Of a stretch of 64,000 bases of DNA, positions 205-21,027 are shown in pieces. Source of the stretch: Sphingomonadales bacterium (GTDB lineage: Bacteria > Pseudomonadota > Alphaproteobacteria > SMXS01). The stretch is taken from positions 67,001-131,000 of the forward strand of contig JALHLV010000009.1 in assembly GCA_022844405.1 (NCBI GenBank), read 5' to 3'. Within the stretch, counting starts at the first letter, position 1; every line of letters starts with the position of its first letter. The notes beneath the pieces were generated by a model, which saw only the letters and a program-made list of their open reading frames with translations, did no database searches and was not told the origin of the DNA. The position numbers were made by a program, and so were the translations under genes.

Positions 205-1428
205 TCAGTCCGCCAGCACCAGGCCGACCTCGCCCAGCTTGATCAGGGTTTCGGCCCACTCTCCATCGGGTGTGGACTGGCTGGTCACCGCGGCGCCGAC
301 CCAGGAGTAGTATTCGCCGCCTGAGCGATACGCCGTCCGCAGCACCTGCGTCATCGACGCGCCGCCGTCAGGCTTGACCAGGCCGACAAGTCCATAGAAC
401 GGTCCGCGGTCGCCCGTCTCCAGGGCCAGCAGCGCCTGGTAGCCGCCTGCCGCCGGACTGACGCCCAGCGGCAGCACCGCGCGGATGCCGTCGGCGACGC
501 CGCGGCCGGGTCCGTAGGCGACCGTGAACCGGGTCATCATGTGGCGAAGCTGGCGCAGATCGAGGATTTCCGGGCCGACCGACGTAACCGTCCCAAGCCG
601 CGACAGCGCGGCCCCGAACGACGCGGCCGAATTGGCGTGCTCGGCCAGGTTCTTCGCGTCGGCCGCGAAGCGGCGCCGCAGCTCGGCGTCGGCCTCGGGG
701 TCGGCATCCCGCGCAAAGGTGCCGGACAGCTTGTAGGACACGAAGCCGTCGCGGTCTCCGACCATCAGCACTTCCGGACACTGGCCGGTCAACCCCGCCG
801 CGCCGAGATCGAGATGAAAGCTGCGGCTGTGGGCGCTCGCCGAGGGCAGGCAGGACACCGAGCGCAGCATGTCGATCGCCGGCAGCTCCAGTCGCCGGGC
901 CACGGTCATGCGCCTGCGGGGGTCACCATCGACCCAGGCAAGCGCGGCGTCAACCGTCCGGCGGTAAGCGTCCGGCGCCGACCGGTCGAGTGCCGTGGCG
1001 AGATGGACCGGCCGGTCGCCGCAGGTGCAGGCGGGCGCGGACACATCAGGCAGCGTGCCCGCGGCGATGGTCCAGGAATCGGGACCGACATCGAGCGCGA
1101 CCTCGGCGGTGCCGAGCCAGCAGTCCGGAAAGACCGAGGGACGCGCATCTTCGGTCCGCCCGTTCAGGCCGAACCCGAAGAAGCCGAAGATATAGCGGTC
1201 CTGGTGAGCGGCAAGGAAATCCCCCACCGCCGCCCAAACCTCACCCCGATACTCGGGCTCCAGCACCAGGCGCGCCTCCGCGCCGGCGCAGGCGATCGCC
1301 GCCCCCTCGTTGCCGTAGAGGAAATACGGTCCCGCGATGCCGGCGGCCTGCAGCCCCTTCAGCAGCCTGGCGCCGTTACACCGCGCATCGCCGCGCCTGC
1401 AACGGAGATGCCTGGGGCCAGCCGCCAC
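205..1428 (-). CDS. Chorismate-binding-fold protein with an atypical active site
   Basis: A 407-residue protein. The C-terminal half follows the anthranilate/isochorismate/salicylate synthase fold: CPEVLM (217-222), an SGTF loop (235-238) where AGTR is usual, AEH (262-264), RGPFYG (341-346) and EWAETLIKL (390-398). Family members convert chorismate to isochorismate, salicylate, anthranilate or aminodeoxychorismate. By eye, several key residues differ: the catalytic His of the HxxxT strand aligns with Thr299, the Mg-binding Glu of the KExxEH helix is Asn260, the usual Lys/Gln before the VLSR-like strand is Arg173, and the SGAPK loop is shortened. It may be a repurposed or inactive enzyme. I chose the GTG at 1428, two bases after the stop of the upstream gene; no ATG is in frame. 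It is the last gene of a four-gene unit. Confidence 0.75.
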   Translation of the reverse strand: MAAGPRHLRCRRGDARCNGARLLKGLQAAGIAGPYFLYGNEGAAIACAGAEARLVLEPEYRGEVWAAVGDFLAAHQDRYIFGFFGFGLNGRTEDARPSVFPDCWLGTAEVALDVGPDSWTIAAGTLPDVSAPACTCGDRPVHLATALDRSAPDAYRRTVDAALAWVDGDPRRRMTVARRLELPAIDMLRSVSCLPSASAHSRSFHLDLGAAGLTGQCPEVLMVGDRDGFVSYKLSGTFARDADPEADAELRRRFAADAKNLAEHANSAASFGAALSRLGTVTSVGPEILDLRQLRHMMTRFTVAYGPGRGVADGIRAVLPLGVSPAAGGYQALLALETGDRGPFYGLVGLVKPDGGASMTQVLRTAYRSGGEYYSWVGAAVTSQSTPDGEWAETLIKLGEVGLVLAD

Positions 1429-1430
1429 GG

Positions 1431-2216
1431 TCAGGCCCGCGACGGGGTCTGGCCGAAGGCCCGCAGATAGTCGAACGGCAGCGGATCGCAGGCACCTGAC
1501 GTGATGGCCGCCAGCCGATCGGACGCCACCGGCCCGGAGAACTGGGCGTTGCGCATGACGACCCGGTGCCGCAGCTGTTCCTCGACCAACCCGCCCAGCG
1601 TCGACCATTCGGCCTCGGACAGGGAATCGACCGAGCCGGCCAGATCGGCGATGCCGCGCAGCATGTGCCCGAATTCGTCGTTGAACACCACGGAACACGC
1701 CCTGGCGATCATGCCGTCGATGCCGTCGCGCGAGGCCAGCTTCATGCCTTCGGAATAGAGCGTGCAATAGCCGCCCTCGGTGAACCGCTGCGCGCGCAGC
1801 CCGAGCACGCCGTGTTCCTGCCGGTGCCGGGCGCGCAGCGCCTGCAGCCGGTCGTTCTCCGGCCACGCGCCGAGGTCGCGCAGGGCGTCGGCGCTCGGCG
1901 TCGTCCCGGACAGCGCCTCGAACACCTCGGCGAAGCCCATATAGTGGATGAACTCCTCGCGCAGCACGTCGACTTCCTCGAGGAACTCGGCCCGGCTGCC
2001 CGAGCCGCCGACGCCGTCGAAATTGTCACGCGCCCACAGCAGGCTGGGCAGTGCGCCGTCGAGCAGCTCCTTGTACATCTGCCGGACCAGCCAGAGCCGG
2101 TCGGTCTCGGCGGTACGGCGCGGCGAATTCCAGTAGGTGCGGACCACCTCGGCCTCGGCGGCCCACAGCCGCTCGCAGCGGTCGATCAGCGATACGATAT
2201 TCGGGTTGATGGTCAT
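1431..2216 (-). CDS. Ferritin-like di-iron protein, putative oxygenase
   Basis: A 261-residue, mostly helical, soluble protein. It carries a full ferritin-like di-iron ligand pattern: a Glu near 50 (YKELL), E88xxH91 (EEFIHYMGF), E147 (FTEGGY) and E181xxH184 (NDEFGHM). Proteins with this E / ExxH / E / ExxH set bind two irons and usually activate O2 for oxygenation, desaturation, N-oxidation or deformylation. No specific family can be named from sequence alone. The ATG at 2216 overlaps the upstream methyltransferase stop (ATGA) and its own stop is two bases before the next gene, so expression is coupled. The neighbours suggest it oxidises an acyl or aromatic intermediate of the cluster; that is inference. 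Confidence 0.75.
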   Translation of the reverse strand: MTINPNIVSLIDRCERLWAAEAEVVRTYWNSPRRTAETDRLWLVRQMYKELLDGALPSLLWARDNFDGVGGSGSRAEFLEEVDVLREEFIHYMGFAEVFEALSGTTPSADALRDLGAWPENDRLQALRARHRQEHGVLGLRAQRFTEGGYCTLYSEGMKLASRDGIDGMIARACSVVFNDEFGHMLRGIADLAGSVDSLSEAEWSTLGGLVEEQLRHRVVMRNAQFSGPVASDRLAAITSGACDPLPFDYLRAFGQTPSRA

Positions 2217-3118
2217 GCGGTCGCCAGTCTTTCGGCGGTGATCAGATAGTGGCCATTCGTATTGGGCACGGACGGGCCGGTGACTCCGGCGACGCCGTGC
2301 TGCGCGCTGCGCTCGAACCGGTCGAGCCGGAAGCCGGCATCCTCGAACAGCGCGCGCAGGCCGTCGGCCGAGCGCACCGGCAAGGCCCAGAAATTGCGCG
2401 CATGGTCTCGGGCCATGGCGACGACATCCAGGGCGGCCGCTTCGGACGGCAGCATCGACGGGACCAGCTCGGCCACCCGCGCCACGAAGGCCTCGGCCTC
2501 GGCGGCTGAAAAGCGCACGATATCGCCAGGATAGTCGTCGCGCACCCGCTGCACCGTCACAACCCGGCCACCCGGCCGCAGCGCCCGCGCCCACTGCTCC
2601 ACCAGGCGCCGGCGGGCGCGGTCGTCGAAATTGCCCATGAACGCATGGGTGTAGACGGCGTCGAACGCGCCTTCCGGCAATGGGTCGAGCACGTCCTGAT
2701 GCTGTGTCTCGACCCGCAGGCCGTGCCGGGCCCCGTACCACTCGCATGTCCGAAGGGGCGTGGCGCAGCGGTCGAGCACCACATAGGTCAGCGGCGGGTC
2801 CGAGGGATTGCGGGAATCGGCGATCAGCTTGAGCATGGAATAGTCGGCCGATCCGGTGACCAGCACCTCGCGGAACGACGGATCGTGCCGCGAGCGCGCC
2901 AGCTCGGCGGCATAGTGCTCGGCGTGGACGCCCGAGGTCGACATCAGGCCAAGCATCCTCAGGAACTGCCAGGCGCCGTGATACCAGGCGCAACTGCCGC
3001 CATCATGGTCATGCTGGCACAGCCCCGGCGCCCAGCCATGCGCGAGCAGCGCCGATTCCAGCAACTCCGCGTCGTCGGGCGTCAGGTCTGCCCGGGAGGC
3101 GGCCAAGGGCTTGCTCAT
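2213..3118 (-). CDS. SAM-dependent methyltransferase
   Basis: A 301-residue class I methyltransferase-like protein. After a roughly 80-residue N-terminal extension containing CQHDHDGGSC (34-43) comes a Rossmann-type core: VLVTGSADYSML as motif I (less Gly-rich than normal), YVVLDRC with the ribose-binding acidic residue, HQDVLDPLP, DAVYTHAFMGNF and LRPGGRVVTV. It should transfer a methyl group to an unknown O, N or C acceptor. The ATG at 3118 overlaps the ligase stop and its stop overlaps the di-iron gene start, which decided the start against an upstream in-frame ATG at 3133. The altered motif I makes loss or change of SAM binding possible. Confidence 0.8.
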   Translation of the reverse strand: MSKPLAASRADLTPDDAELLESALLAHGWAPGLCQHDHDGGSCAWYHGAWQFLRMLGLMSTSGVHAEHYAAELARSRHDPSFREVLVTGSADYSMLKLIADSRNPSDPPLTYVVLDRCATPLRTCEWYGARHGLRVETQHQDVLDPLPEGAFDAVYTHAFMGNFDDRARRRLVEQWARALRPGGRVVTVQRVRDDYPGDIVRFSAAEAEAFVARVAELVPSMLPSEAAALDVVAMARDHARNFWALPVRSADGLRALFEDAGFRLDRFERSAQHGVAGVTGPSVPNTNGHYLITAERLATA

Positions 3119-4458
3119 CAGTCCACCATGCACATGAACTCGTGGAATTTTCCGTTGGGACCCTTGGGCAGTTCGCCCTCGACCTGTTCGATGGTCACCT
3201 CGAACGGATGTTTGATCTTCTGGCGCACCAGCGCCGTGATCCAGGCCCGTTCATCCCCGGTCAGCGGATGGTCTGCGACCACTCTCATCTCCAGCCTTTC
3301 CAGGCTGGTCTGGATGATCTGGTACTGCTTGACCAGACGCGTCGCCTCCGGGTCGCGCATGCCGAATTGCGGCCAGAACTTGCTCCCGTCGGGCAGCCGC
3401 ATCAGGTTGCGCTCGCGGCCGACGATGCGCTTGAGGACACGCAGCCCGCGCTTGCATCCGCAGGCCTCGCCCACTTCGGCATAGTCCCTGATCTCGTAGC
3501 GCAGCATGGCAGTGGCGAAATTGGCGAAGTCGGTCACCACCACGCGGCCGATCTCGCCGGGCCCGCAGGGCCGGTCCTGCGCGTCGAGCACTTCCACGAC
3601 CAGGGTCTCGGCCACGCAATGGTAGTTGCCGTGCGGGCACTGGGCGGCGATGGATCCCATTTCCTCCGAGCTGTACTCGTCATAAAGCGGAATGCCCCAG
3701 CGGTCCCGCGTATCGGCCCGGACGTCGTCGGAGAGCGTCTCGCCGATGGTCATGACACATTCGAGCCCCGCCGGCAGACCCGGCGAGTTGTCGAGCAGCG
3801 CGCGCAGATTCGACGGATAGGTCAGCAGGTAGGCCGGTTTGTAGCGGTCGAGGAACTCGAGCTGTCCACTGATCGGCACGCTGATCGGCAAGCCGATCGC
3901 CGGACCCGTATGGAACAGCGACGAGAGCTGCGCGCCCCAACCCTGGTATTGCACCGGCTTGTCCACGGTGCCCGTCTTGATGCTGGCGCGGATCGCCGCG
4001 AACGTCTTTCGCGTATTGAGGTCGCGCCACCCGAGATTGCGGATGGTGACCGCCCCGCGCAGCATGAAGCACGCCGTGGTGCAGCGCACCGCTACCGGCT
4101 GTCCGGTGGAGCCCGACGTGCGCAGGGTCTTGACCGGGCCGTGCGCCGTTGGCGGCTCGCAATAGATGCCGTCGGCGTTGCCCTGCAGGTCGGCACGGGT
4201 CAGCAGCGGCAGCGATCCGAGCACGTCGAACGCGGTTCGGTGATCGATCTGCAGGCCTCTCAGCCTGGGCGCGAAGAACGCGCTTGCCTCGGCGGCATGG
4301 CGCAGGCGCGACGCCAACTGCGCGGCCTGAAGACGCCGCAGCCGCTCGGGCGACATCCATTGGCTTCGCTCCAGCTGGGTCAGATAGGCGAAGACCTGCG
4401 CATGCTTCGGATCGATCACCGCCGGCCAGACCAGCGATTGCGAATGGGATTTCAGCAC
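3118..4458 (-). CDS. PaaK/CapK-like AMP-forming carboxylate ligase
   Basis: A 446-residue member of the phenylacetate-CoA ligase / CapK branch of the adenylate-forming superfamily. The ATP P-loop is TSGSTGQP (114-121). EYSSEEMG follows near 275, then the zinc-type cysteine set QCPHGNYHC and CGCKRG seen in PaaK-like proteins, and VGRERNLMRLPDG before the mobile C-terminal domain. It is expected to activate a carboxylic acid, often aromatic, as an acyl-adenylate and pass it to CoA or another acceptor. It is the first gene of the cluster. The start is a GTG preceded by AAAAAGG. The aromatic-acid preference of relatives fits the chorismate-fold protein downstream, but the true substrate is unknown. 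Confidence 0.85.
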   Translation of the reverse strand: MLKSHSQSLVWPAVIDPKHAQVFAYLTQLERSQWMSPERLRRLQAAQLASRLRHAAEASAFFAPRLRGLQIDHRTAFDVLGSLPLLTRADLQGNADGIYCEPPTAHGPVKTLRTSGSTGQPVAVRCTTACFMLRGAVTIRNLGWRDLNTRKTFAAIRASIKTGTVDKPVQYQGWGAQLSSLFHTGPAIGLPISVPISGQLEFLDRYKPAYLLTYPSNLRALLDNSPGLPAGLECVMTIGETLSDDVRADTRDRWGIPLYDEYSSEEMGSIAAQCPHGNYHCVAETLVVEVLDAQDRPCGPGEIGRVVVTDFANFATAMLRYEIRDYAEVGEACGCKRGLRVLKRIVGRERNLMRLPDGSKFWPQFGMRDPEATRLVKQYQIIQTSLERLEMRVVADHPLTGDERAWITALVRQKIKHPFEVTIEQVEGELPKGPNGKFHEFMCMVD

Positions 4459-9311: not shown

Positions 9312-12300
9312 CTAGAAGTGGAGCCGGACGCCGCCGCTGATGACGTGCTCGCTGAAGCTTCCGCCGATTTCGCCCGAGTAGTCGAGATACAGGCTGAACA
9401 TCTCGGAAACCTTGCCGCTGACGCCGGCGCCGAAGATGACCGTGGTCTCGCGCGGCACCTGGCCGAAGACGGTGAAGCTCGTGCCCGGCGCACCCTGGAA
9501 CCCAGAGGTGATCGGACGGAGATCGTCTTCGAACTCGTTGGCGATACCGACGCGGACATAAGGCATCCAGCCGCCGCCGTTGCCGGCCAGGAACGTCTTG
9601 GACAGACGCAGCTGGGCGGTACCGCGGACACTCTTGACCGACTGGCCGTCGACATCCAGGAGGAACACGGCCGCGTTGCCGGTGCCGGTCTCCGAGAAGC
9701 CGTCCTGCTTCACCTTGGCGTAGGACAGGGCCAGTTCAGGCGACAGCTTCCAGCCGGAGTTACCCATGTCGAAGCTGTAGCCGCCCTTGCCGTAGAAGTA
9801 GGTGATGTCGCCGTCATAGTCGGCGGTGGCGATCTGCGAGACGTTGCCGATGCCGCTGCCGAACTGGATGTTGCGGATGCTCTCGATGTTCATGTCACCG
9901 ATGCCGCCGCCGGCGTTCACGAACCAGCTCTGGGTGAAGTAGCTGATGTAGCCGCCCACCTGCCAGCTGTCGACGTCGCCTTCCTTGGTGCCGTTCTTGG
10001 CGTCGACGTCGGAGTTGCCGAAGCCGCCGAGGATACCGATCAGGAAGTTGGGGTTGATCAGGTAGTCGAAGCCCGCATAGCCGGTCAGGGTCTCGTACTT
10101 GTACTCCAGCCAGCCCTCGTCGCTGCCGTCGTCGATGTTGGCGTTGCCCCACGATCCGGCGAGCCAGAAGGTGGCGCGACGGTCGCTGGCGCTGGAGCCG
10201 ACCGCGGAGTCGTCACCCACGTTCATCACGACGCGGTTCTGTTGACCGCCCGAGAAGCCCTGGGCTTCGATGGTCCGGATGTAGGCCTGCTGCTCGGCGC
10301 CACGGGCGATCGAGAAGCCGACTTCGTTGAAGGCGTTGTACCACTCGGGGTGCAGCGCATCCAGGGCAGCCGGGATGTCGGTCGCCGTGCCCACCAGGGC
10401 GATGGCGGCGTGCAGCGGATCCTCGTTGAGGCCGTACTTGGTGAGCGTGTCGAGATACTCGCCGGTCAGAGTCTGGTTGAGTGTGGTGCCCTTGGGCTCG
10501 AAGTTCGGGATCGAGATGATCCGCACCCGGTCCGGCAGGTACTGCAGATAGGCCTTCAGCAGCTGCTGGCGAACCTCGGTGACGGTTTCGTCTTCCTCGG
10601 TCGTCGGATCGTCGGCCACCGCGTAGCGAACGACCACCGCGCCGTCGTTGGGACCGCCGTCGAAGCCCTTCTCGTCGAACTTACCGGTGACGCCGCCCTC
10701 GGCCACGATGATATCCCAGACCTTCGCGTCCTTCGAGAAGTCGGCGTTGTTCTTGGCGATACCCTTCGCGTCCACATCGGCGATGCCGTCGGGGATGGCG
10801 TAGAGCGGGTTCGGAATGAAGCACGAGTCGGCGCCGTCCGGATCATCGCCGCAGCCGGTCTTGTCCGGATCGACGATGGTCGGCGACTGGCTGTTGTCGA
10901 CCAGGTCGACGAACTCGCCGTCGAGGCGGATATCCAGACGGCCGTCGACCGTGGCGTTGCCGTCGAGCACCGTGGAGACCTTGTAGGACACGCCGTCCGG
11001 AACACCGTCCGCACCGCCCTTGCCAGCCACGATGGTGTCGACCTTGGTCTTGGTTTCGCCATCGACAACGATGGTGAAGTCGTTGACGCCGTCGCCCTTC
11101 GTGCCGTCGGTAACCTTGCCGTCGGCGCCCTGGGTGACCAGATCGACCGGACCCGGACCCTTGGTGTCGAAGGTCGAGCCGGTGAACGCGGTGGTGACGC
11201 CGGACTTCTTGACCAGCAGCAAGTCGCCCTTGCCGTCATCCTTCAGGTCGGCCTGGAACTGGCTGCCCCAGTTGGTGACGACCTCGCGGCCAGCCTGGTT
11301 CTTGAAGACCTGGTTGCCCTTGGCGTCCTTCGACTCGTCCACATCCTTGGTGGCCGGGTCATCCGCGACCGCGATCTTGTAGTTGGTGACGCCGGTTGCC
11401 CTGCCATCCATCTTGACGTTGCCGACCACGGTCAGCGTGCCGATACGGGTGATCTCGTCGCCCGGGGCCAGCGTCGCGTAGCGCGGGCTGTCGGTGGTGA
11501 AGTCGAACGGTCCGGCGAACTCCTCGGCCACCCAGCCCGCGGGCAGGGTGATCGTGGGATACAGCTTGCCGGCATCGTCCACGGTGTAGAGCAGGTCGAC
11601 CTTGACCGGCGGATCTTCCTCGTCTTCGGCCGGAACGAACTTGAAGTCGTCAGTACCGTCGCCCTTGGTCGCGTCGGTGATCTTGCCATCCTCGCCCTGA
11701 GTGATCAGATCGCCCGGAGCCGTGCCGATGATCAGCGAACCGCGCGCCTCGGAGAACAGCGTCTGGCTGACGATGTTGTCTTCGTCGGCGCCCACCAGGA
11801 AGGTCTTGTCGCCCTGGACGGCGCCGCTCAGGTTGACGCCGCCATTGCCGCCATTGGCGCCGGGGTTGGTCACGATCGTGCCGTGGCCGCCCAGGATGCC
11901 GCCGGACAGGACGTCCACGACCGGAGAGGTCAGGACCGCCTTGCTGTTGGTGTTGACGTCGAAGGTCGACGGCTCCAGTTCGCCCTCTTCCTCGTCGGTC
12001 GGTTCGCCCGGGATTTCGGTGATCACCGTGCCGCCGATGTTGAGGCGGCCATTGTCGACGATGGTGCCGACCGTGCCGGAGATCATGGCGATGGTGTCGT
12101 CACCGGTGGCGGCTTCCTCGTCGAGGACGCCGTTGCCGTTGCCGTCGACATCCACCAGCGTCCACAGGTTGGTGCCGTCGATCTTGACGTTGCCGTTGAG
12201 GCTCCAGGTGCCGACCGGGAATGGCTGGTTCTCCAGCACCGGGTTGCCGATGGCAGCGGACATCTCGATACCGTCCTCCGGACCGACGCTGTAGATGTCG

Positions 12301-15300
12301 TCCTGGGTGAGCCGGTCGTTCACATACATCACCTCCGCTTCGGTGATGTTGCTGGCCAGGTCCTGGTAGCCTTCGCCGAACAGGATGACTGCGTCGAGCC
12401 CGGTATCCACGTTCGGGGTCGATACGAAGCCCACGGCGGTGCCGCCGGCGGATTCGTCCACGTCCTTGGTGGTCGGGTCGTCCTTGATCAGGCCGAGGAC
12501 CCCGGCGGTCTCCAGCGTCTGGCCGAGATTGACATCGCCGTTCAGGGTCGAGCCGATCTCCAGGGCCAGCACGTCGTCGCCGGCCTGGGTCCAGATGTGG
12601 CCGTTGATGGTGCCGCCCGCGAAGTTGGCGACATACTCGTTGCCTTCGCCGCCCAGGATCGCGAAGCGGTTGCTGAGCTGCTGCGGCGGAACCGCATCCT
12701 TGGCTTCGTTCACGTCCTTGGTGGCCGGGTCATCCGGGACTGCCGGAATTTCGGCCGAGAAGGTGTTGGCGCCGTTGATCTCACCCCAGTTGAAGATGAA
12801 GACCTCGAGGCCCACCTCGCCCTCACGGGTGTCGATGGCCGCGACCGGATCGGCGCCCTTGCCGTTGATGTAGTCCAGGGCGCCCTTCGATTCGTCCACG
12901 TCCTTCGTGGCGGGGTCGTCCACCAGCGGCGTCGGCAGGGTGCCGAGGTCGGTGGCGCTGATCTCGCCGAAGTTGTCGATCTGCACCGAGTCTTCGCCGC
13001 CGTTGATCGGGCCGTCCTCGTAGAGGTAGCCGGCCTCGCCGCCGGTGATCAGGCCGTTGGTGTCGTTGACGATGTAGGTCGACTGGCTGCCGTCCTCGCC
13101 GTTGAAGTCGCTGCCATCGGTGATGCCGGTGTGCTTGCCGATGATCTTGCCGTCATTGTAGACGACGCTGCGGTTGGCGGTGGTGTGGATGCCGTCGTCG
13201 TTCTGGCCCTGGATCAGCGAGTTGGTGTAGTTGCCGACGAAGAGGTCCTCGCCGCCGACGTCGATACCGTCGTCCTTGCCGATGATCCGGCCCTCGTCGA
13301 GGTCCTCGCCGAAGCCTTCGGACAGGTTCTCGATGTTGGTCCAGACGGAGCTGCCGCTACCGAGGTTCGAGGAGATGCCGTCGCTGTTCTGGCCGGTGAT
13401 CGTGCCGCCGATGTTATCGACGAACAGATCGCCATTGGTGTTGTCGATGCCGTCCCAGAAGCCGGTGATCGAGCCGTAGCTGAGGATCTCGTTGTTGCCG
13501 CCGCTGTTGATGTCGATGCCGTCGCCTTCCTGGCCCCAGATCGAGGCGTTGTCGTCGAGCGAGGTGCCGTTCTGGATGTCGTTGTTGCTGCCGTCGAGTT
13601 CGATGCCTTCGTCCTCGCCGGTGATGCTGCCGGTGCTGAAGACGGAGTTGCTGTTGCCGTCGATCTCGATGCCGTCATCGCTCTCGCCGATGATGGAGCC
13701 ATTGACGTTGTCGATGTCGTTGGAGTTGCCGTCGACTTCGATGCCGTCATCGCCGCCGACCACGGTGCCGCCATCGATGTCGACGACGTTGCTGTCGCCC
13801 TCGATGTCGATGCCGTCGTCACCGCCATCGATCAGGTTCGAGCTGTAGATGTAGTTGCTGTTGCCGTTGGCCTCGACGCCGTTGTTGCCGCCGAGCACCT
13901 GGCTGTAGTTGTACAGGCTGTTGCCGCCGGTATCGAAGTCGACGCCGTCGTCACCGCCCTGGATCAGGTCGTTGTTGGTGACGACGTTCCCGGAACCGCT
14001 GAGCACGGAGACACCGTCATTGGTGCCGGTGATGGTGTTGCTGTTGGTGACCCCGTTCGTCGAACCGTTGATCTCGACGCCGTCATCGCCGCCGTTGATG
14101 GTGCCGGTCGAGGTGTTGGTCAGTATGTTGCCGCTGCCCAGCTGGACGCCATCGTCAGTGGTGCCCTTGACGGATCCGCTGTTGGTGATGGTGTTGCTGC
14201 CGACAGCCACGATGCCGTCCTGCTGGCCCAGGATCCAGTTGCTGTTGGTGATCGTGTTGCCGAAGTCGGCGTTGATGCCGATGTTGCCGGCGTCGATTTC
14301 GCCCGAGTTGGTGATCGTGTTGCCGTCGTCGACGTCGATGCCGATGTTGCCGGCGTCGATGTCGTCGGTGTTGGTGATCTTGTTGAGATCGTCACCGTCG
14401 ATGCCGTTGTTCTCGCCGGTGATGTTGCCGTTGTTGGTCACCTCGTTCGAGTCGTTCACCACGATGCCGTTCCAGCCCTTGATGTTGCCGGTGCTGGTGT
14501 TGGTGATCGTGTTGCTGTCGACGGCGTTGATGCCGTCGCCGTCGTTGTTGTCGTCGCTGTCGGCGGTGAGCGTGCCGGTGTTGACGATCGTGTTCAGGCT
14601 GCCGGCCTCGATGCCGTTGTCCTTGGCGATGATCGTCACGGGCGAGTTGTTCTCGATGTAGTTCTTGTCGCCCGCCACGATGCCGTCGTCGCCGGCGGTG
14701 ATCGTGCCGTTGTTGACCACTTTGTTGTCGTCGTCGACCACGATGCCATCGTTGGTGACGGTGATGATGCCGTCATTGAGGATGTCGTTGCGGTCGTCGC
14801 CAACGATGCCGTTCCAGCCGGTGATCGTGCCGTTGTTCTCGACATTGTTGTCCGACGTCACGGTGATGCCGTTGCCGTCGCTGTTCTTGTCGGTGTCGGC
14901 GTTGATGGTGCCGTTGTTGATGATGGTGAAGAAGCCCTGGTCGGCCACGATGCCGTCATCCTTGGCGTTGATCGTGCCCAGCCAGACCAGCGATTCATAG
15001 GCATTCACCAGCCCGCCATACTCGTACTCGATGCCGTCGTCGCCGGCATTGATGACCGTATTGGCGTTGTGTTGGAAGGTGTTGCCGTCCACGTCCACCA
15101 GGATGCCGTCGGCGCCCGCGTCGATCTTGACGTTGGTCAGGTCGACGTCGTTGCCCGTCCCGCTGTCGAACCACACGCCGTTCTGGCCAGCGTTGATGGT
15201 CGCGGCGATGTCGACGAAGTTCTGGTTGCCGTTGATCTGGATACCGTCCTTGCCGGCGATGACGTCCTTCGAGGTGACGTTGTTCTGGTTGCCGTTGATG

Positions 15301-18300
15301 TTGATGCCGTCGTCATTGACGCTGCTGATGTCGTCGACGGCGAACACGTTGTTCTGGTTGCCGGTGATGCCGACGCCCGCGCCGCTGACCGTGGCGATGT
15401 CGTCGAGCGACGTCACCGTGTTCTGGTTGCCGGTGATGCTGGCGCCGCCGAGCAGGCCGTTGATGTCGGCGCCACCCACGTTGTTCTGGTTGCCCAGGAT
15501 GATCACGCCTGGATCGCCGTTGATCGAGCCGGTGGCGCTGACGTTGTTGAACGCGCCCTTGATATCGACGCCGTCGCCGGTGCCGTCGCCGGCGCCGGGG
15601 AAGCTGTCGCCGTTGATGTCGCCATCCACCCTGACGATGTTGTTCACGCCGACGATCGCGACGCCGTCGTCACCGCCGGTGACCGTGCCGGAATCGACGG
15701 TGTTGTTGTCGCCGAGGATGCCGATGCCGTCGCCGGACGTGCCGGTGGTGGTGCCGTCGATGTCGATGTCGTTGGAATCGCCATCGATGTAGACGCCGTC
15801 ATCGGTGCCCGAGACGTTGCCGTCGGCCTCGATGGTGTTGTTGTCACCCTCGACGTTGACGCCGTCACCGGCAAAACCGGTGATATCCTCGCCGGTCACG
15901 GTGTTGTTCGAGCCGTCGATCACCACGCCAGCGGTACCGCCGGAGATGTCGGCATCCTCGCCGGCCGCGGCGACGCTGTTGTTGTTGCCCGAGACATCGA
16001 CGCCGTTGCCGTCGCGGCCGGTGATGTCGCCGAACGCCACGACGCTGTTGTTGATGCCCTCGATCTCGACGCCGTCGTCTTCGCCGGTGATGGGGCCGCC
16101 CGAGAGCACGTCGTTGCCCAGCCCGAAGATGTTAACGCCGTCATTGGCGGTCGACAGGATGGCGCCGTCGGTCGTCACCGAGTTGTTGTTGCCGTTCAGG
16201 CCGACGCCGGGGCCGTCCTCGCCGCTGATCGTCGCGGCGTCGATGGTGTTGCTGTTGCCGTTGATGACGACGCCGCCGCTGCCGGTGCCGCTGACGCCGA
16301 TGTCTTCACCGCTGACGGTATTGTTGTTGCCGTCGATCAGAACGCCGTGGCCGTAGCCGGCCTGCTCGACGTCGCCGATGATGTCGCCGTCCACCTGGAT
16401 GGCGTTGTTGTCGCCGGCGATGTAGATCGCGTCGCCGTCGCCGGACACCTTCGTGGCGTCGACATTGTTGCTGTCGCCGTCGATGTCGACGCCGCTGTCG
16501 CCGCCGAAGATTTCTCCGGTGTCGATCAGGTTGCTGTCGCCGTCGATCCTGACACCATCGTCGAATCCGCCGTTGATGCTGGTCGAGGTCACTTCGTTGT
16601 TGTTGCCGGTGATCGCGACGCCAGTGTCCTCGCCGCTGATCGAGCTCGCCGCGCTGACCGAGTTGCTGCTGCCGGTGATCACCACGCCGTCGCCGTCTTC
16701 GCCGCTGATGAACGCGCCGGAGTCGACGATGTTGCCGGTGCCCGAGATGACCACGCCGTCATCGGTGCCCGCCATCGCGGTGGTCGAGGAGACCTGGTTG
16801 GCGTTGCCGTCGATGACGACCGCGTCCTCGCCGTAGATCGCACCGGCGCTGGTGACCACGTTGGAGGTGCCGGTGATGTCGACGCCATTGCCGTCGCCAT
16901 CGTCATCGCTGTCGCCGTCGATGTCGCCGACGGTGCTCGCGACCGTGTTGTTGTTGCCGTTGCTGATCACCACGCCGCCGTCGGTGCCGCTGATCGAGGC
17001 GCCGCTGACGTCGTTGTTGTTGGAGTTGGTGATCACCACGCCCGGATCGCCGCTGATGGCGCCGCCGACAGTGACGGTGTTGCTGCCGCCGCCGAAGATA
17101 TCGACGCCGTCGCCGCCGAACGCGTCGTCGATGTCGCCGGTCACGTCGCCGTCGACATTGACCACGTTGCCGGTGGCGGTCTCGAGGTAGATGCCGTCGT
17201 CCTCGCCGCTCACGTCGCCGTCGATATCGACGCTATTGGTGTTGCCGCCGATGTGGATGCCGTCGTCGCCGCCCTGCAGGTCCAGGTCGTCGGTCGAATC
17301 GAAGGTGTTGCTGTCGCCGTTGATCTCCAGCGCGTCGCCGGTGCGGCCCTTCAGCTCGGGATCGATGCCCGCGCCGCCCTCGTAATCGACGTCGTTGTCG
17401 TCGCCGTCGAGCACGATGCCGTCATTGTCGCCCCACACGGTCACGCCGTCCTCGATCTCGAGGCTGTTGTCGTCCTCGAGGAAGATGCCGTCGCCGCCCT
17501 TGCTCAGCGTCGTGGTGACCTTGGTCGTGCCGCTCAGCTCGATGTCGTTGTCCTCGTCGGAATAGATGCCGGCGCCGGTGCCGCCCTCGATGAGGCCGGA
17601 AAAGCTGAGGAAATCGTTTTCTTCATCGTTCAGGGCGACGCCGTTGGTGCCGCCTTTGATGTCGCCGTAGTTCTCGATGTAGTTCTGCTCGCCGTTGACC
17701 TGGATACCGTCCTCGCCGGCGACGATGTTGCCGTCCGCCTCGTTGGTGACCAGGTTGCCGAAGCTGAACGGACCCTTCTGGCCGTCCATGACGATGCCGT
17801 TACCGCCGATCGAATTGATGTCGCCGCTGTTGGTGACGACGTTCGAGTGGCCGACATTGATGCCGTCGCCGCCACCTTCATTGTCGTCGTCGGCGTTGAT
17901 GGTGCCTTCGTTGTCGATGATGTTGTAATGCTCGGCGACGATGCCGTCGTCATTGGCGGTGATGGTGGCTTCGCTGTCGTTGTCGATGAGCTGCTCACCG
18001 CCCGGGATGCCCAGGCCGCTCTTGGCGTCGATGCCGTCGTCGGCCGCGATGATGGTGTTGCCGTTGTAGATTTCCTGCTGGTCGTAGCCGTTCTTGACCA
18101 GGCCGAGCAGGCTCAGGCCGTCGACGCTGGCGTGAATGCCGTCGCCGCCGGCGCCGTTGTCCTGGTTCTCGTCGTCGCCGCTCTCGAGCGTGGTGTTGTC
18201 GATATCGTCGATAAAGGTGTCGCCGCGGGTGTCGATGATGCCGTCGTTGACGATCGTGTTGCTCTCGCCGATCACCTGGATGCCGTGGCTGTCGCCGTTG

Positions 18301-20786
18301 GCGTCCTCGCCGGAGGCGATGATGCCCTGGTTCCGGATGAAGTTGTTGGCGTCGGCGTGGATGCCGTCGCCGCCGGTGGGGCCCTCGCCCGGCAGGCCGC
18401 CGGCCACGATCACGGCGTCTTCGCCGTTGGTGACGGCGAAGTCGTCATTGACGCGGATGCCGTGGCGCCCGGCCTCGATGGTGCCCTGATTGTCCACCAC
18501 CTCGGGGAAGTACCCCTTGATGCCGAACAGCAGGTCGAGCGGATCGTCGATCTCGCCCAGGCCGTTGACGTCCTGGCCGAGACCGGCGTTGAAGTCGGAA
18601 CCGAAGCCGTCGTCGTTATAATTGTCGTAGTGGATGCCGTCGCGGCCCGCCACGATCAGCGAATCGTTGTCCGACTGGTAGCCGGATTCGAACTCGCCGA
18701 AGCCCGCAGGCAGGTCGCCGTCGACCTCGTCGGTGTGGATGGTGGTGAAGCGGACGCCGTCGCCGCCGGCATAGATCTCGCCGCCCTGGTTGCGGACGTC
18801 GCTGTTGGTGTTGGACACCAGCACGCCGTCGTCGCCGGCGCGGATGATGCCGTCATTGTCCAGATCGTTGCCGGTGCCGTCGGGGTCGCCGAGGAAGTCG
18901 CCGCCATTGGCCGCGTCGAGGCCGGTCGTGACCTGGTCGTCGCCCAGCAGGCGCACGCCGTCGCCGCCGGCATCGACCACGCCGCCGTCGTCGATGTCGA
19001 CGGTGTTGTTGTCGGCGCCGCCGTCCTGGCCGTTGACGACGATGCCGTCGCCGTTCTCGACGTCCACCAGGCCGCCGTCCTCGACAGTGACGCTGTTGTT
19101 GTCGTTGTCATCGCCGACAGTGCCGACGACGATGCCGTTGCCGCTGCCGGTGACCAGCACCTGGCCCTGGTCGCCGATGGTGACGGTGTTGTCGTTGGTC
19201 GAGCCAGGGCCGTCGAAACCGTCGGTCAGCGAAATGCCGTCACCGCCGCCCGTCGTCTTGACATAGCCCGCGCCGCCGGCGCCGCCGATGGTGATGGTGT
19301 TGTCGTCGTCGACGTTGATGCCGTCATTGGGGTCGGAGTTCACCTCCGCGCCGCCGTCGATCAGGATGATGTTGTTGTCGTCGACGAGAATGCCCGGGTC
19401 GCCATAGACCTTGGAGCCGCCGGTGACTTGGATGTTGTTGTTGTCGTTGCCCTGGATGCCGTCGCCGCCGCCGCTGCTGTCGGTGTCGCCCTTGACGATC
19501 GACGCGCCCTGGACCAGCAGCTTGCTGCCGGTGCCGAGGTCGATGCCGTCGTCCTTGCCGCGGATGGTGGCGCCGCCGTCGATGGTGATGTCGGTGCCCG
19601 AGCTGGGTTCGAAGACGTGGATGCCGTCGGCATTGGTCGCACCGTTGCCTTCGACGATGCCCTTGCCGGAAATATTGATGATGGTGTTGTTGCTGGCGAT
19701 GCCCGTGTCGCCGAGCTCGATACCGTTGGCGCCGCCGGTGATCAGGCCGGTGGTGCCCGGACCGAACGTCACGGTGAGCTTGACGTCGTCGCTGGTCGGC
19801 GAGATGTCGATGCCCGCGGCGGTGGCGCCGCCCTTCACGGTGCCGTCGCCCGAATAGTTGACGATCGACTTGTCGCCGACGATCAGGATGCCGTCCTCGA
19901 TGTCGCCGATGATCTTGCCGTCATTGTCGACGGTCAGGGTGGCGCCGCCGGTGCCGGTGAACTCGATGCCGCGGTCCTCGCCGTGGATCTCGCCCAGCGT
20001 GCCGTTGTTGACGTTGGTCCAGCCGCTGGCGTTGATGCCGTCGCCGCCATCGACCGTCGCCGCGCCCGGGGTGCCGCCGGAGATGATGTAGGCGGTTTCC
20101 TTGCCCTGCAGGCCGTTGTTGATGGTGTTGACGTTGCCGCTGGTGCCGCCCGAGACCTCGATGCCGTGGTCGCCGTCGTCGTCGCCGCCGCCGCTGATCA
20201 CGCCCGAATTGGCGCCATTGCCGTTGTCGAAGTTGTTGACGGTGTTGTTGATGCCGTCGATGTCGATACCGTCGGCCGTGCCGCTGATCTTGCCGCCGCC
20301 GACGATGTCCGACGCCTTGGTGAAGCCGTTGTTGACGGTGTTGCCGTCGCCCTCGATCACGATGCCGTCGCCCGCCGTGCCGGTGACGGTGCCCACCGTC
20401 GTGCCGCCGAAGAACAGATCGAACACGAACACCGTGTTGTTGTTCGAGGTGCCATCGGTGCCGCTGCCCAGGTCGATGCCGACGCCGGCGCTCGCCACGC
20501 CGTCCTCGAGCACGCGAATGTCGAAAGCGTCGTAGCCGTCGGCGTCGAATCCGCCAGCGCCGCTGGAGCAGATGATCGGATTGCCAACGCCGTCGCCGGT
20601 GCCGGTAGCGGTCGAGCACGTGGCGATCGCGGGGCTGCTGTCCACCAACGCGAACGTCGCGACGGTCAGAGCGACGGCGGTCATGGCGCCGCGCGTCACG
20701 AACTTCGCGGTGCCCCGCGCGCCGGCATCGACGGCCAGGCGCGAAACGGTGTTCAGCAGCGTGTTCTTTTCGTTGGAGAGATTCAT
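9312..20786 (-). CDS. Giant repeat-rich type V autotransporter
   Basis: A 3824-residue secreted protein. Residues 1-55 form an extended signal peptide (basic region, then AMTAVALTVATFALV and SPAIA before the cut). Residues about 60-2600 are over one hundred imperfect 20-22-residue units of the type G-x-D-G-(I/V)-x-(I/V)-x-G-(D/N)-x-N-x-(V/I)-x-G-x-I, typical of a right-handed beta-helix with an Asn ladder; the passenger is extremely rich in Asp, Asn and Gly. Residues about 2600-3530 are less regular and carry five copies (four clear, one degenerate) of a DDPATKDVDES-like segment. Residues about 3535-3824 are an autotransporter beta-barrel ending GGVRLHF. The barrel should insert in the outer membrane and display the helix; adhesion or matrix function is inferred. 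GGGAG precedes the ATG at 20786; an in-frame ATG at 20873 lacks a site. Confidence 0.93.
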   Translation of the reverse strand: MNLSNEKNTLLNTVSRLAVDAGARGTAKFVTRGAMTAVALTVATFALVDSSPAIATCSTATGTGDGVGNPIICSSGAGGFDADGYDAFDIRVLEDGVASAGVGIDLGSGTDGTSNNNTVFVFDLFFGGTTVGTVTGTAGDGIVIEGDGNTVNNGFTKASDIVGGGKISGTADGIDIDGINNTVNNFDNGNGANSGVISGGGDDDGDHGIEVSGGTSGNVNTINNGLQGKETAYIISGGTPGAATVDGGDGINASGWTNVNNGTLGEIHGEDRGIEFTGTGGATLTVDNDGKIIGDIEDGILIVGDKSIVNYSGDGTVKGGATAAGIDISPTSDDVKLTVTFGPGTTGLITGGANGIELGDTGIASNNTIINISGKGIVEGNGATNADGIHVFEPSSGTDITIDGGATIRGKDDGIDLGTGSKLLVQGASIVKGDTDSSGGGDGIQGNDNNNIQVTGGSKVYGDPGILVDDNNIILIDGGAEVNSDPNDGINVDDDNTITIGGAGGAGYVKTTGGGDGISLTDGFDGPGSTNDNTVTIGDQGQVLVTGSGNGIVVGTVGDDNDNNSVTVEDGGLVDVENGDGIVVNGQDGGADNNTVDIDDGGVVDAGGDGVRLLGDDQVTTGLDAANGGDFLGDPDGTGNDLDNDGIIRAGDDGVLVSNTNSDVRNQGGEIYAGGDGVRFTTIHTDEVDGDLPAGFGEFESGYQSDNDSLIVAGRDGIHYDNYNDDGFGSDFNAGLGQDVNGLGEIDDPLDLLFGIKGYFPEVVDNQGTIEAGRHGIRVNDDFAVTNGEDAVIVAGGLPGEGPTGGDGIHADANNFIRNQGIIASGEDANGDSHGIQVIGESNTIVNDGIIDTRGDTFIDDIDNTTLESGDDENQDNGAGGDGIHASVDGLSLLGLVKNGYDQQEIYNGNTIIAADDGIDAKSGLGIPGGEQLIDNDSEATITANDDGIVAEHYNIIDNEGTINADDDNEGGGDGINVGHSNVVTNSGDINSIGGNGIVMDGQKGPFSFGNLVTNEADGNIVAGEDGIQVNGEQNYIENYGDIKGGTNGVALNDEENDFLSFSGLIEGGTGAGIYSDEDNDIELSGTTKVTTTLSKGGDGIFLEDDNSLEIEDGVTVWGDNDGIVLDGDDNDVDYEGGAGIDPELKGRTGDALEINGDSNTFDSTDDLDLQGGDDGIHIGGNTNSVDIDGDVSGEDDGIYLETATGNVVNVDGDVTGDIDDAFGGDGVDIFGGGSNTVTVGGAISGDPGVVITNSNNNDVSGASISGTDGGVVISNGNNNTVASTVGDIDGDSDDDGDGNGVDITGTSNVVTSAGAIYGEDAVVIDGNANQVSSTTAMAGTDDGVVISGTGNIVDSGAFISGEDGDGVVITGSSNSVSAASSISGEDTGVAITGNNNEVTSTSINGGFDDGVRIDGDSNLIDTGEIFGGDSGVDIDGDSNNVDATKVSGDGDAIYIAGDNNAIQVDGDIIGDVEQAGYGHGVLIDGNNNTVSGEDIGVSGTGSGGVVINGNSNTIDAATISGEDGPGVGLNGNNNSVTTDGAILSTANDGVNIFGLGNDVLSGGPITGEDDGVEIEGINNSVVAFGDITGRDGNGVDVSGNNNSVAAAGEDADISGGTAGVVIDGSNNTVTGEDITGFAGDGVNVEGDNNTIEADGNVSGTDDGVYIDGDSNDIDIDGTTTGTSGDGIGILGDNNTVDSGTVTGGDDGVAIVGVNNIVRVDGDINGDSFPGAGDGTGDGVDIKGAFNNVSATGSINGDPGVIILGNQNNVGGADINGLLGGASITGNQNTVTSLDDIATVSGAGVGITGNQNNVFAVDDISSVNDDGININGNQNNVTSKDVIAGKDGIQINGNQNFVDIAATINAGQNGVWFDSGTGNDVDLTNVKIDAGADGILVDVDGNTFQHNANTVINAGDDGIEYEYGGLVNAYESLVWLGTINAKDDGIVADQGFFTIINNGTINADTDKNSDGNGITVTSDNNVENNGTITGWNGIVGDDRNDILNDGIITVTNDGIVVDDDNKVVNNGTITAGDDGIVAGDKNYIENNSPVTIIAKDNGIEAGSLNTIVNTGTLTADSDDNNDGDGINAVDSNTITNTSTGNIKGWNGIVVNDSNEVTNNGNITGENNGIDGDDLNKITNTDDIDAGNIGIDVDDGNTITNSGEIDAGNIGINADFGNTITNSNWILGQQDGIVAVGSNTITNSGSVKGTTDDGVQLGSGNILTNTSTGTINGGDDGVEINGSTNGVTNSNTITGTNDGVSVLSGSGNVVTNNDLIQGGDDGVDFDTGGNSLYNYSQVLGGNNGVEANGNSNYIYSSNLIDGGDDGIDIEGDSNVVDIDGGTVVGGDDGIEVDGNSNDIDNVNGSIIGESDDGIEIDGNSNSVFSTGSITGEDEGIELDGSNNDIQNGTSLDDNASIWGQEGDGIDINSGGNNEILSYGSITGFWDGIDNTNGDLFVDNIGGTITGQNSDGISSNLGSGSSVWTNIENLSEGFGEDLDEGRIIGKDDGIDVGGEDLFVGNYTNSLIQGQNDDGIHTTANRSVVYNDGKIIGKHTGITDGSDFNGEDGSQSTYIVNDTNGLITGGEAGYLYEDGPINGGEDSVQIDNFGEISATDLGTLPTPLVDDPATKDVDESKGALDYINGKGADPVAAIDTREGEVGLEVFIFNWGEINGANTFSAEIPAVPDDPATKDVNEAKDAVPPQQLSNRFAILGGEGNEYVANFAGGTINGHIWTQAGDDVLALEIGSTLNGDVNLGQTLETAGVLGLIKDDPTTKDVDESAGGTAVGFVSTPNVDTGLDAVILFGEGYQDLASNITEAEVMYVNDRLTQDDIYSVGPEDGIEMSAAIGNPVLENQPFPVGTWSLNGNVKIDGTNLWTLVDVDGNGNGVLDEEAATGDDTIAMISGTVGTIVDNGRLNIGGTVITEIPGEPTDEEEGELEPSTFDVNTNSKAVLTSPVVDVLSGGILGGHGTIVTNPGANGGNGGVNLSGAVQGDKTFLVGADEDNIVSQTLFSEARGSLIIGTAPGDLITQGEDGKITDATKGDGTDDFKFVPAEDEEDPPVKVDLLYTVDDAGKLYPTITLPAGWVAEEFAGPFDFTTDSPRYATLAPGDEITRIGTLTVVGNVKMDGRATGVTNYKIAVADDPATKDVDESKDAKGNQVFKNQAGREVVTNWGSQFQADLKDDGKGDLLLVKKSGVTTAFTGSTFDTKGPGPVDLVTQGADGKVTDGTKGDGVNDFTIVVDGETKTKVDTIVAGKGGADGVPDGVSYKVSTVLDGNATVDGRLDIRLDGEFVDLVDNSQSPTIVDPDKTGCGDDPDGADSCFIPNPLYAIPDGIADVDAKGIAKNNADFSKDAKVWDIIVAEGGVTGKFDEKGFDGGPNDGAVVVRYAVADDPTTEEDETVTEVRQQLLKAYLQYLPDRVRIISIPNFEPKGTTLNQTLTGEYLDTLTKYGLNEDPLHAAIALVGTATDIPAALDALHPEWYNAFNEVGFSIARGAEQQAYIRTIEAQGFSGGQQNRVVMNVGDDSAVGSSASDRRATFWLAGSWGNANIDDGSDEGWLEYKYETLTGYAGFDYLINPNFLIGILGGFGNSDVDAKNGTKEGDVDSWQVGGYISYFTQSWFVNAGGGIGDMNIESIRNIQFGSGIGNVSQIATADYDGDITYFYGKGGYSFDMGNSGWKLSPELALSYAKVKQDGFSETGTGNAAVFLLDVDGQSVKSVRGTAQLRLSKTFLAGNGGGWMPYVRVGIANEFEDDLRPITSGFQGAPGTSFTVFGQVPRETTVIFGAGVSGKVSEMFSLYLDYSGEIGGSFSEHVISGGVRLHF
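10580..12920 (-). repeat. Five dispersed copies of a DDPATKDVDES-like coding segment
   Basis: Copies lie at about 12885-12920 (DDPATKDVDESK), 12700-12735 (DDPATKDVNEAK), 12451-12483 (DDPTTKDVDES), 11326-11366 (DDPATKDVDESK) and, degenerate, 10580-10620 (DDPTTEEDE). They interrupt otherwise unrelated passenger sequence at irregular spacing. The DNA of the copies is similar but not identical. Confidence 0.75.
12990..20610 (-). repeat. Coding tandem repeats of the autotransporter passenger
   Basis: The DNA is a long series of imperfect roughly 60-66-bp units, visible as recurring GATGCCGTCGTC and GTTGTTG blocks on the plus strand. Units differ at many synonymous and non-synonymous positions, so they are old or diversified rather than freshly duplicated. 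The array encodes beta-helix coils, not a separate element. Confidence 0.85.
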
Positions 20787-20820
20787 CGATCTCGACTCCC
20801 TATTAAGCGGAAACAGCAGC

Positions 20821-20841
20821 AAAAGCGCCCTTTGCGGGCGC
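20821..20841 (-). promoter_or_regulatory. Terminator-like hairpin in the autotransporter leader
   Basis: On the minus strand GCGCCC - GCAAA - GGGCGC is followed at once by TTTT, 35 bases before the ATG. It has the form of a short intrinsic terminator placed inside the 5' leader, as in attenuators. The six-pair stem is short, so strength is uncertain. Confidence 0.45.
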
Positions 20842-21027
20842 CGCGGATTGGAATATCCCGGCCAGTTGGCCATGGCGCGTGATGGAACACAACGCCAAAA
20901 GTTGACACTTTCGGTGACAGATCAAGCAGATCGGCTCCTCATAACCCCTCCCGGAGGTCGTACCCAACAGCGGAACGCTTCCCTTACCCCACGGCGCCGA
21001 AGGCTTTGGGCCTTTCGGTCGACGTTA

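Follow-up and report, generated by a model that had tools for sequence, protein, structure and literature searches.

An exchangeable, translationally coupled four-gene cassette encodes a putative di-iron enzyme at one chromosomal site of an alphaproteobacterial genus

The stretch of DNA analysed here, referred to as the window, comprises 64,000 nucleotides of an alphaproteobacterial draft genome (G000:C9:67001-131000). Close to its beginning, four consecutive minus-strand genes encode a PaaK-like ligase, a methyltransferase, a putative di-iron protein and a protein with a chorismate-binding fold. An earlier reading of the letters alone, the original prediction, had proposed that these genes form a minimal biosynthetic cluster for a chorismate- or aryl-acid-derived product, and the coordinates that it gave for the four genes were correct. 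The genes and their junctions are:

3118..4458, minus strand: PaaK-like adenylate-forming ligase, 446 amino acids, GTG start
3116..3120, minus strand: TGATG overlap between the ligase stop and the methyltransferase start, one-base overlap in the window
2213..3118, minus strand: class I S-adenosylmethionine (SAM)-dependent methyltransferase, 301 amino acids
2213..2216, minus strand: ATGA overlap between the methyltransferase stop and the di-iron protein start, kept in four genomes
1431..2216, minus strand: putative di-iron oxidase/oxygenase of an undescribed family, 261 amino acids
1429..1430, minus strand: two-base gap from the di-iron protein stop to the GTG start of the chorismate-fold gene, kept in four genomes
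205..1428, minus strand: chorismate-binding-fold protein, 407 amino acids, GTG start, with an N-terminal domain of its own

The second and third junctions were as originally described, but the first, which had also been read as ATGA, turned out to be TGATG in the window, overlapping by one base, and is ATGA in the three compared congeners. The two-base gap and the GTG start of the chorismate-fold gene were identical across all four compared genomes. The ratio of nonsynonymous to synonymous substitution rates (dN/dS) between the window and the three congeners was 0.15-0.25 for each of the four genes, and all four are therefore maintained proteins. These are genuine genes whose translation is coupled and which evolve under purifying selection. 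The identity of the cassette proteins across the genus was 73-83%, lower than the 87-99% found for the flanking SDR and amidase, which fits secondary metabolism without proving it. A scan for sigma-70 promoters and terminators gave nothing above chance.

The four-gene block was present in five of the seven genomes of the genus, in the same order and always between the amidase and SDR genes. The di-iron gene was likewise found in five of the seven, in one of which the contig ends inside the last cassette gene. In the congener G289 the cassette was absent and the amidase-SDR1 interval held only a small unrelated protein of 127 amino acids; the completeness of this draft is 84%, yet the interval is unbroken. 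In the sister genus G659 the cassette was absent as well, and the two flanks of the whole variable region, the amidase and HIBADH genes, are neighbours. A third arrangement was found in the congener G039, a two-contig genome:

L071:8530-12685: G039-type alternative cassette at the same chromosomal site, with a ligase, an enolase-superfamily protein, a methyltransferase and an alpha/beta hydrolase

The ligase in this interval showed 55% identity, the methyltransferase was divergent (30%) and the hydrolase gene was convergent, while neither a di-iron nor a chorismate gene was found there. Taken together, the empty site in G289, the adjoining flanks in G659 and the alternative cassette in G039 show that the unit is a discrete, exchangeable cassette bounded by the four genes. 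The original prediction had named conservation of the ligase and methyltransferase without the other two genes as an argument against itself, and this arrangement was found in one genome, G039, at the very same site. Because G039 has the ligase and a methyltransferase homologue without the other two, these four genes as a set are one form of a modular cassette. The amidase and SDR were considered as further members and rejected, since both stay in the cassette-free G289 and the amidase and upstream SDR also occur in G659. A downstream ATP-grasp (CphA-like) gene and a second methyltransferase were also rejected; they are conserved in the genus but are present in G289 as well. At L014:6334-9243, just outside the window, a second methyltransferase gene adjoins the gene for an ATP-grasp protein that resembles cyanophycin synthetase but scores well under the equivalog cut-off; the pair is conserved in the genus, also where the four-gene cassette is absent.

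The putative di-iron protein gave no match in Pfam, NCBIfam, PADLOC or the PDB sequences. The predicted ligands E50, E88, H91, E147, E181 and H184 were invariant in 34 aligned sequences, as were E21, E23 and R218, and the ligands include two ExxH motifs (E88xxH91 and E181xxH184). The full set of expected ligands noted in the original prediction is conserved, whereas the label ferritin-like is doubtful, as the model comes nearest to heme-oxygenase-like proteins in its predicted fold. The AlphaFold model had a predicted local distance difference test (pLDDT) score of 93, and its best Foldseek matches were UndA, TenA and PqqC. These matches had a Foldseek probability of 1.00 with E-values only near 0.01 (8e-3 to UndA), and template modelling (TM) scores reached 0.64/0.75, to TenA 2rd3. 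Ferritin-like proteins ranked below these matches, with AurF and BoxB outside the top 50 and PaaA as a weak match. The ligand set of two His and four Glu is nevertheless of the ferritin type, although the predicted fold is heme-oxygenase-like. An AurF-type motif consists of two copies of E-X(28-37)-(D/E)E-X2-H, and the window protein carries both (E50...EExxH91 and E147...DExxH184), with position 87 not conserved in the homologues. In heme-oxygenase-like dimetal enzymes the metals are bound by three His together with three or four carboxylates (PMC13108848). In the present family only H91 and H184 are invariant and the position of the third His is Val or Ile; E50 from an earlier helix is likely an added ligand in its place.

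The PaaK/CapK-like nature of the ligase was supported by several PaaK-like NCBIfam models, although the protein fell just below the Pfam AMP-binding cut-off and scored 32.3 bits against a cut-off of 646 bits for the PaaK equivalog TIGR02155. Its best PDB sequence matches were 6siw, which we take to be NatL2 (64.8 bits), AjiA1 (6wuq, 60.3 bits) and PaaK (2y27, 48.6). 6SIY is named as a NatL2 structure, and the structural zinc site of NatL2 (Cys248, His254, Cys308, Cys310) was described as unique compared to PaaK (PMC7204872). NatL2 forms an aryl ester straight from the acyl adenylate en route to a benzoxazole, and ClxA acts similarly (PMC7204872, PMC12519233). C274, H280, C333 and C335 of the window ligase align with this zinc site at nearly the same spacing and are invariant in five homologues. 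D325 and K437 (D299 and K418 in NatL2) are also invariant in the five homologues, the TSGSTG loop is kept, and E261 aligns with E235 of NatL2, which contacts the substrate hydroxyl. A NatL2-like ligase type would explain the missing carrier protein, because the ligase resembles carrier-free aryl ester/amide ligases down to the zinc site. Further copies of the ligase family were seen at L118:4339-8546, where three stand in tandem in a marine alphaproteobacterial draft genome with 11 family matches, and at L082:9395-16606 in a congener, in what may be a separate cluster with lipoyl-like, pyruvate-dehydrogenase-E1-like and glycosyltransferase genes close by.

The assignment of the fourth gene product to the chorismate-binding fold was confirmed (PF00425, E 1e-31), and its nearest PDB relatives were MbtI-type salicylate synthases. 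The residue roles are known from MbtI and AtICS1, in which the general base is K205 and K316, respectively (PMC8008425, PMC11444293). By alignment, the magnesium ligands E263 and E393 (MbtI E297 and E434) and the general acid E219 (MbtI E252) are kept, as are H296, R364 and K397 (MbtI H334, R405 and K438) and MbtI E431. MbtI E294 and Y385 are replaced by N260 and F344. The PIKGT motif of PabB reads YKLSGT, with Ser at the position of the Lys, and the scores for salicylate and isochorismate synthases lay far under their cut-offs (TIGR03494, 82.5 of 325 bits; TIGR00543, 90.4 of 225 bits). Because the magnesium ligands are kept while the general-base Lys and the PabB Lys are replaced, the protein probably binds chorismate or a related compound but is probably neither a typical isochorismate or salicylate synthase nor a PabB. 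In its N-terminal domain, C10, C17, C134 and C136 are conserved as far out as the distant relative L020.

The methyltransferase (METHYLTRANSFERASE) has a class I fold, and C34, C43, H47, C118 and C125 are conserved in all eight aligned members. It was assigned correctly in the original prediction: it scored above the Pfam gathering cut-off for Methyltransf_25/11, and its AlphaFold model (pLDDT 85) showed a Rossmann-like fold that Foldseek matched to class I methyltransferases of natural-product pathways. Motif I is unusual (GSADYSM). The Cys and His residues of this protein, and the Cys pairs in the N-terminal domain of the chorismate-fold protein, may bind metal. A role in anti-phage defence was considered and rejected, the only match being a generic methyltransferase-domain hit to mad2 (E 1e-8).

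Scanning 84,980 genomes for a pattern taken from the di-iron alignment returned 48 loci. In eight of these a methyltransferase gene lay within 100 bp of the di-iron gene, namely in three members of the genus and in L020 and L064 (Pseudomonadota), L041 (Myxococcota), L044 (Gammaproteobacteria) and L047 (marine Alphaproteobacteria), and each of these five distant genomes contained exactly one such methyltransferase. The pair is a recurring core. The ligase adjoins it in L044 and L047 (38-39%, E 1e-78 or better) but was not found in the whole draft genomes of L020 and L041. There, an ATP-grasp-like gene stands beside the methyltransferase; in L041 it matches RimK/LysX weakly (E ~1e-3), and in L020, where it has no family match, it was assigned by reading the sequence only. 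Outside the genus, the chorismate-fold gene was found only in L020, where it is cut by the contig end and its N-terminal domain matches (35%, E 2.6e-28). In the L020 and L064 lineages the contig breaks off within the cluster or beside it. The genome-neighbourhood comparison proposed at the outset thus showed the methyltransferase and di-iron genes together in five distant genomes, with the ligase in two and the chorismate gene in one. The methyltransferase-linked di-iron proteins cluster on a tree with two changes, a number as low as which was reached in none of 500 shuffles, a result inflated by near-copies and in which long branches meet. Most of the remaining di-iron homologues lack a methyltransferase in their vicinity and are found among amidohydrolases, Rieske oxygenases and transporter proteins, for example. 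In L038, L042 and L024 another acyl-adenylate ligase is separated from the di-iron gene by 44, 107 and 435 bp, respectively. A phylum-wide methyltransferase search, with the top five candidates per genome scored, returned only the copy in the window. A plasmid collection held no relative of the di-iron protein or the methyltransferase and only distant ligase and salicylate-synthase-type matches.

The best-supported reading of these results is a biosynthetic cassette that works without a carrier protein, uses O2 and makes a small molecule derived from an acid. In the proposed scheme the chorismate-fold protein, with magnesium, would convert chorismate to a ring carboxylic acid, which the PaaK/NatL2-like ligase would adenylate and hand over directly to a hydroxyl or amine partner. 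The methyltransferase would methylate the acid or the product, and the di-iron protein would oxidise the acid-derived compound with O2. The order of the steps, the substrates and the ester or amide outcome are what we infer from the residues and gene contents described above. The compact unit at the heart of the original prediction is supported by synteny, coupling, purifying selection and the methyltransferase/di-iron pair in distant genomes. The acid is likely derived from chorismate in this genus, an origin that we infer from a single divergent protein whose catalytic lysine is substituted. For the full proposal, a minimal exchangeable four-gene cassette making an ester or amide of a chorismate-derived aryl acid, we consider the chances to be even. 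Several results weigh against it. The catalytic Lys205 of MbtI, the lysine of salicylate and isochorismate synthases, is R173 here and invariant as such in the genus, and the chorismate gene is absent from all distant clusters but one. T239 of NatL2, which contacts the alpha-phosphate, is E265 in the window ligase, so the chemistry of the ligase may differ from that of NatL2; this position is Thr in L044 and Gln in L047 and G039. Members of the ligase family are also found in settings unrelated to the cassette, with 11 matches in the L047 genome. For the cassette itself, no metabolite, regulator or dedicated transporter was identified.

The breadth of the methyltransferase/di-iron adjacency, the most widespread feature, also suits a simpler arrangement in which only these two proteins form the core and modify an activated acid in a general two-step process. 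The genes for the ligase, ATP-grasp, chorismate-fold or enolase proteins would then be exchangeable suppliers, and the products would be lineage-specific and maybe non-aromatic. The activator does vary, being PaaK-like in the genus, L044 and L047 and ATP-grasp-like in L020 and L041, which lack the ligase, but the ATP-grasp assignment is weak in both genomes and G039 retains the ligase and a methyltransferase homologue without a di-iron gene. We regard this arrangement as possible but tentative. A bolder extension of the biosynthetic reading is that the di-iron protein founds a new oxygenase family, with a ferritin-type 2His/4Glu cluster in a heme-oxygenase-like fold, and that the Lys-to-Arg chorismate enzyme carries out an undescribed chorismate reaction, together giving a new class of chorismate-derived metabolite; this combination seems doubtful, though conceivable.

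The PaaK-like ligase would agree with a catabolic unit in which the ligase makes an aryl-coenzyme A and the di-iron protein attacks the ring like BoxB or PaaA, and so would the many other di-iron homologues whose neighbours are the amidohydrolase, Rieske oxygenase or transporter genes usual in catabolism. Such a unit is unlikely here: the cassette lacks a hydratase, a thiolase and a reductase subunit, neither a chorismate-fold enzyme nor a methyltransferase suits degradation, and the ligase scores far under the cut-off for the PaaK equivalog (32 of 646 bits). From the two alternative cassettes, MenF-, MenE-, MenC-, MenH- and MenG-like proteins could also be assembled into a side pathway for a quinone or cofactor, similar to menaquinone synthesis, given the enolase-superfamily protein and alpha/beta hydrolase at the same site in G039. 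This is very improbable, as the enolase-superfamily protein of G039 resembles muconate cycloisomerase and dipeptide epimerases more than it does MenC, MenD and MenB are missing, and the chorismate protein lacks the isochorismate synthase Lys.

The cassette holds a putative di-iron enzyme family with 48 genome loci and no match in the libraries searched, together with a putative chorismate enzyme with an altered catalytic base. One chromosomal site in three states (four-gene version, enolase version and none) offers a natural comparison for metabolomics. If the biosynthetic reading is true, the cassette is a small carrier-free unit whose parts can be tested singly, and the use of NatL2-like ligases reaches beyond benzoxazole pathways. 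Elsewhere in the window, at 9312-20873 on the minus strand, an open reading frame of 3853 amino acids contains tandem repeats of 63-72 bases, with an antisense frame of 3960 amino acids on the plus strand. Because its C-terminus resembles an autotransporter beta-domain, the 3853-amino-acid frame probably encodes a giant adhesin.

Literature searches turned up no paper on this combination of genes. The ligase shares with the benzoxazole ligases NatL2, AjiA1 and ClxA the fold family, the acyl-adenylate residues and the carrier-free setting, and with NatL2 the zinc site Cys-x5-His...Cys-x-Cys, but the similarity is only about 60 bits, T239 is Glu, the gene partners are other ones and the cassette has no NatAM-type amidohydrolase. 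Compared to the salicylate synthases MbtI and Irp9 and the isochorismate synthases EntC and MenF, the chorismate-fold protein has the same fold, magnesium ligands, general acid Glu, His, Arg and C-terminal Lys. It differs in Lys205 to Arg, E294 to Asn and Y385 to Phe, in another N-terminal domain with four conserved Cys, and in scoring far below the curated cut-offs. The heme-oxygenase-like dimetal oxidases UndA, SznF, CADD and PolF have the predicted fold closest to that of the di-iron protein and the same ligand order of ExxH, E and ExxH, whereas the third His of their three-His, three-carboxylate set is Val or Ile here, the helix Glu E50 is extra and there is no sequence match. With the ferritin-like di-iron oxygenases AurF, BoxB and PaaA, in contrast, the protein shares the order E...ExxH...E...ExxH and the set of two His and four carboxylates, but the fold search favours the heme-oxygenase-like proteins and the extra His of AurF is missing.

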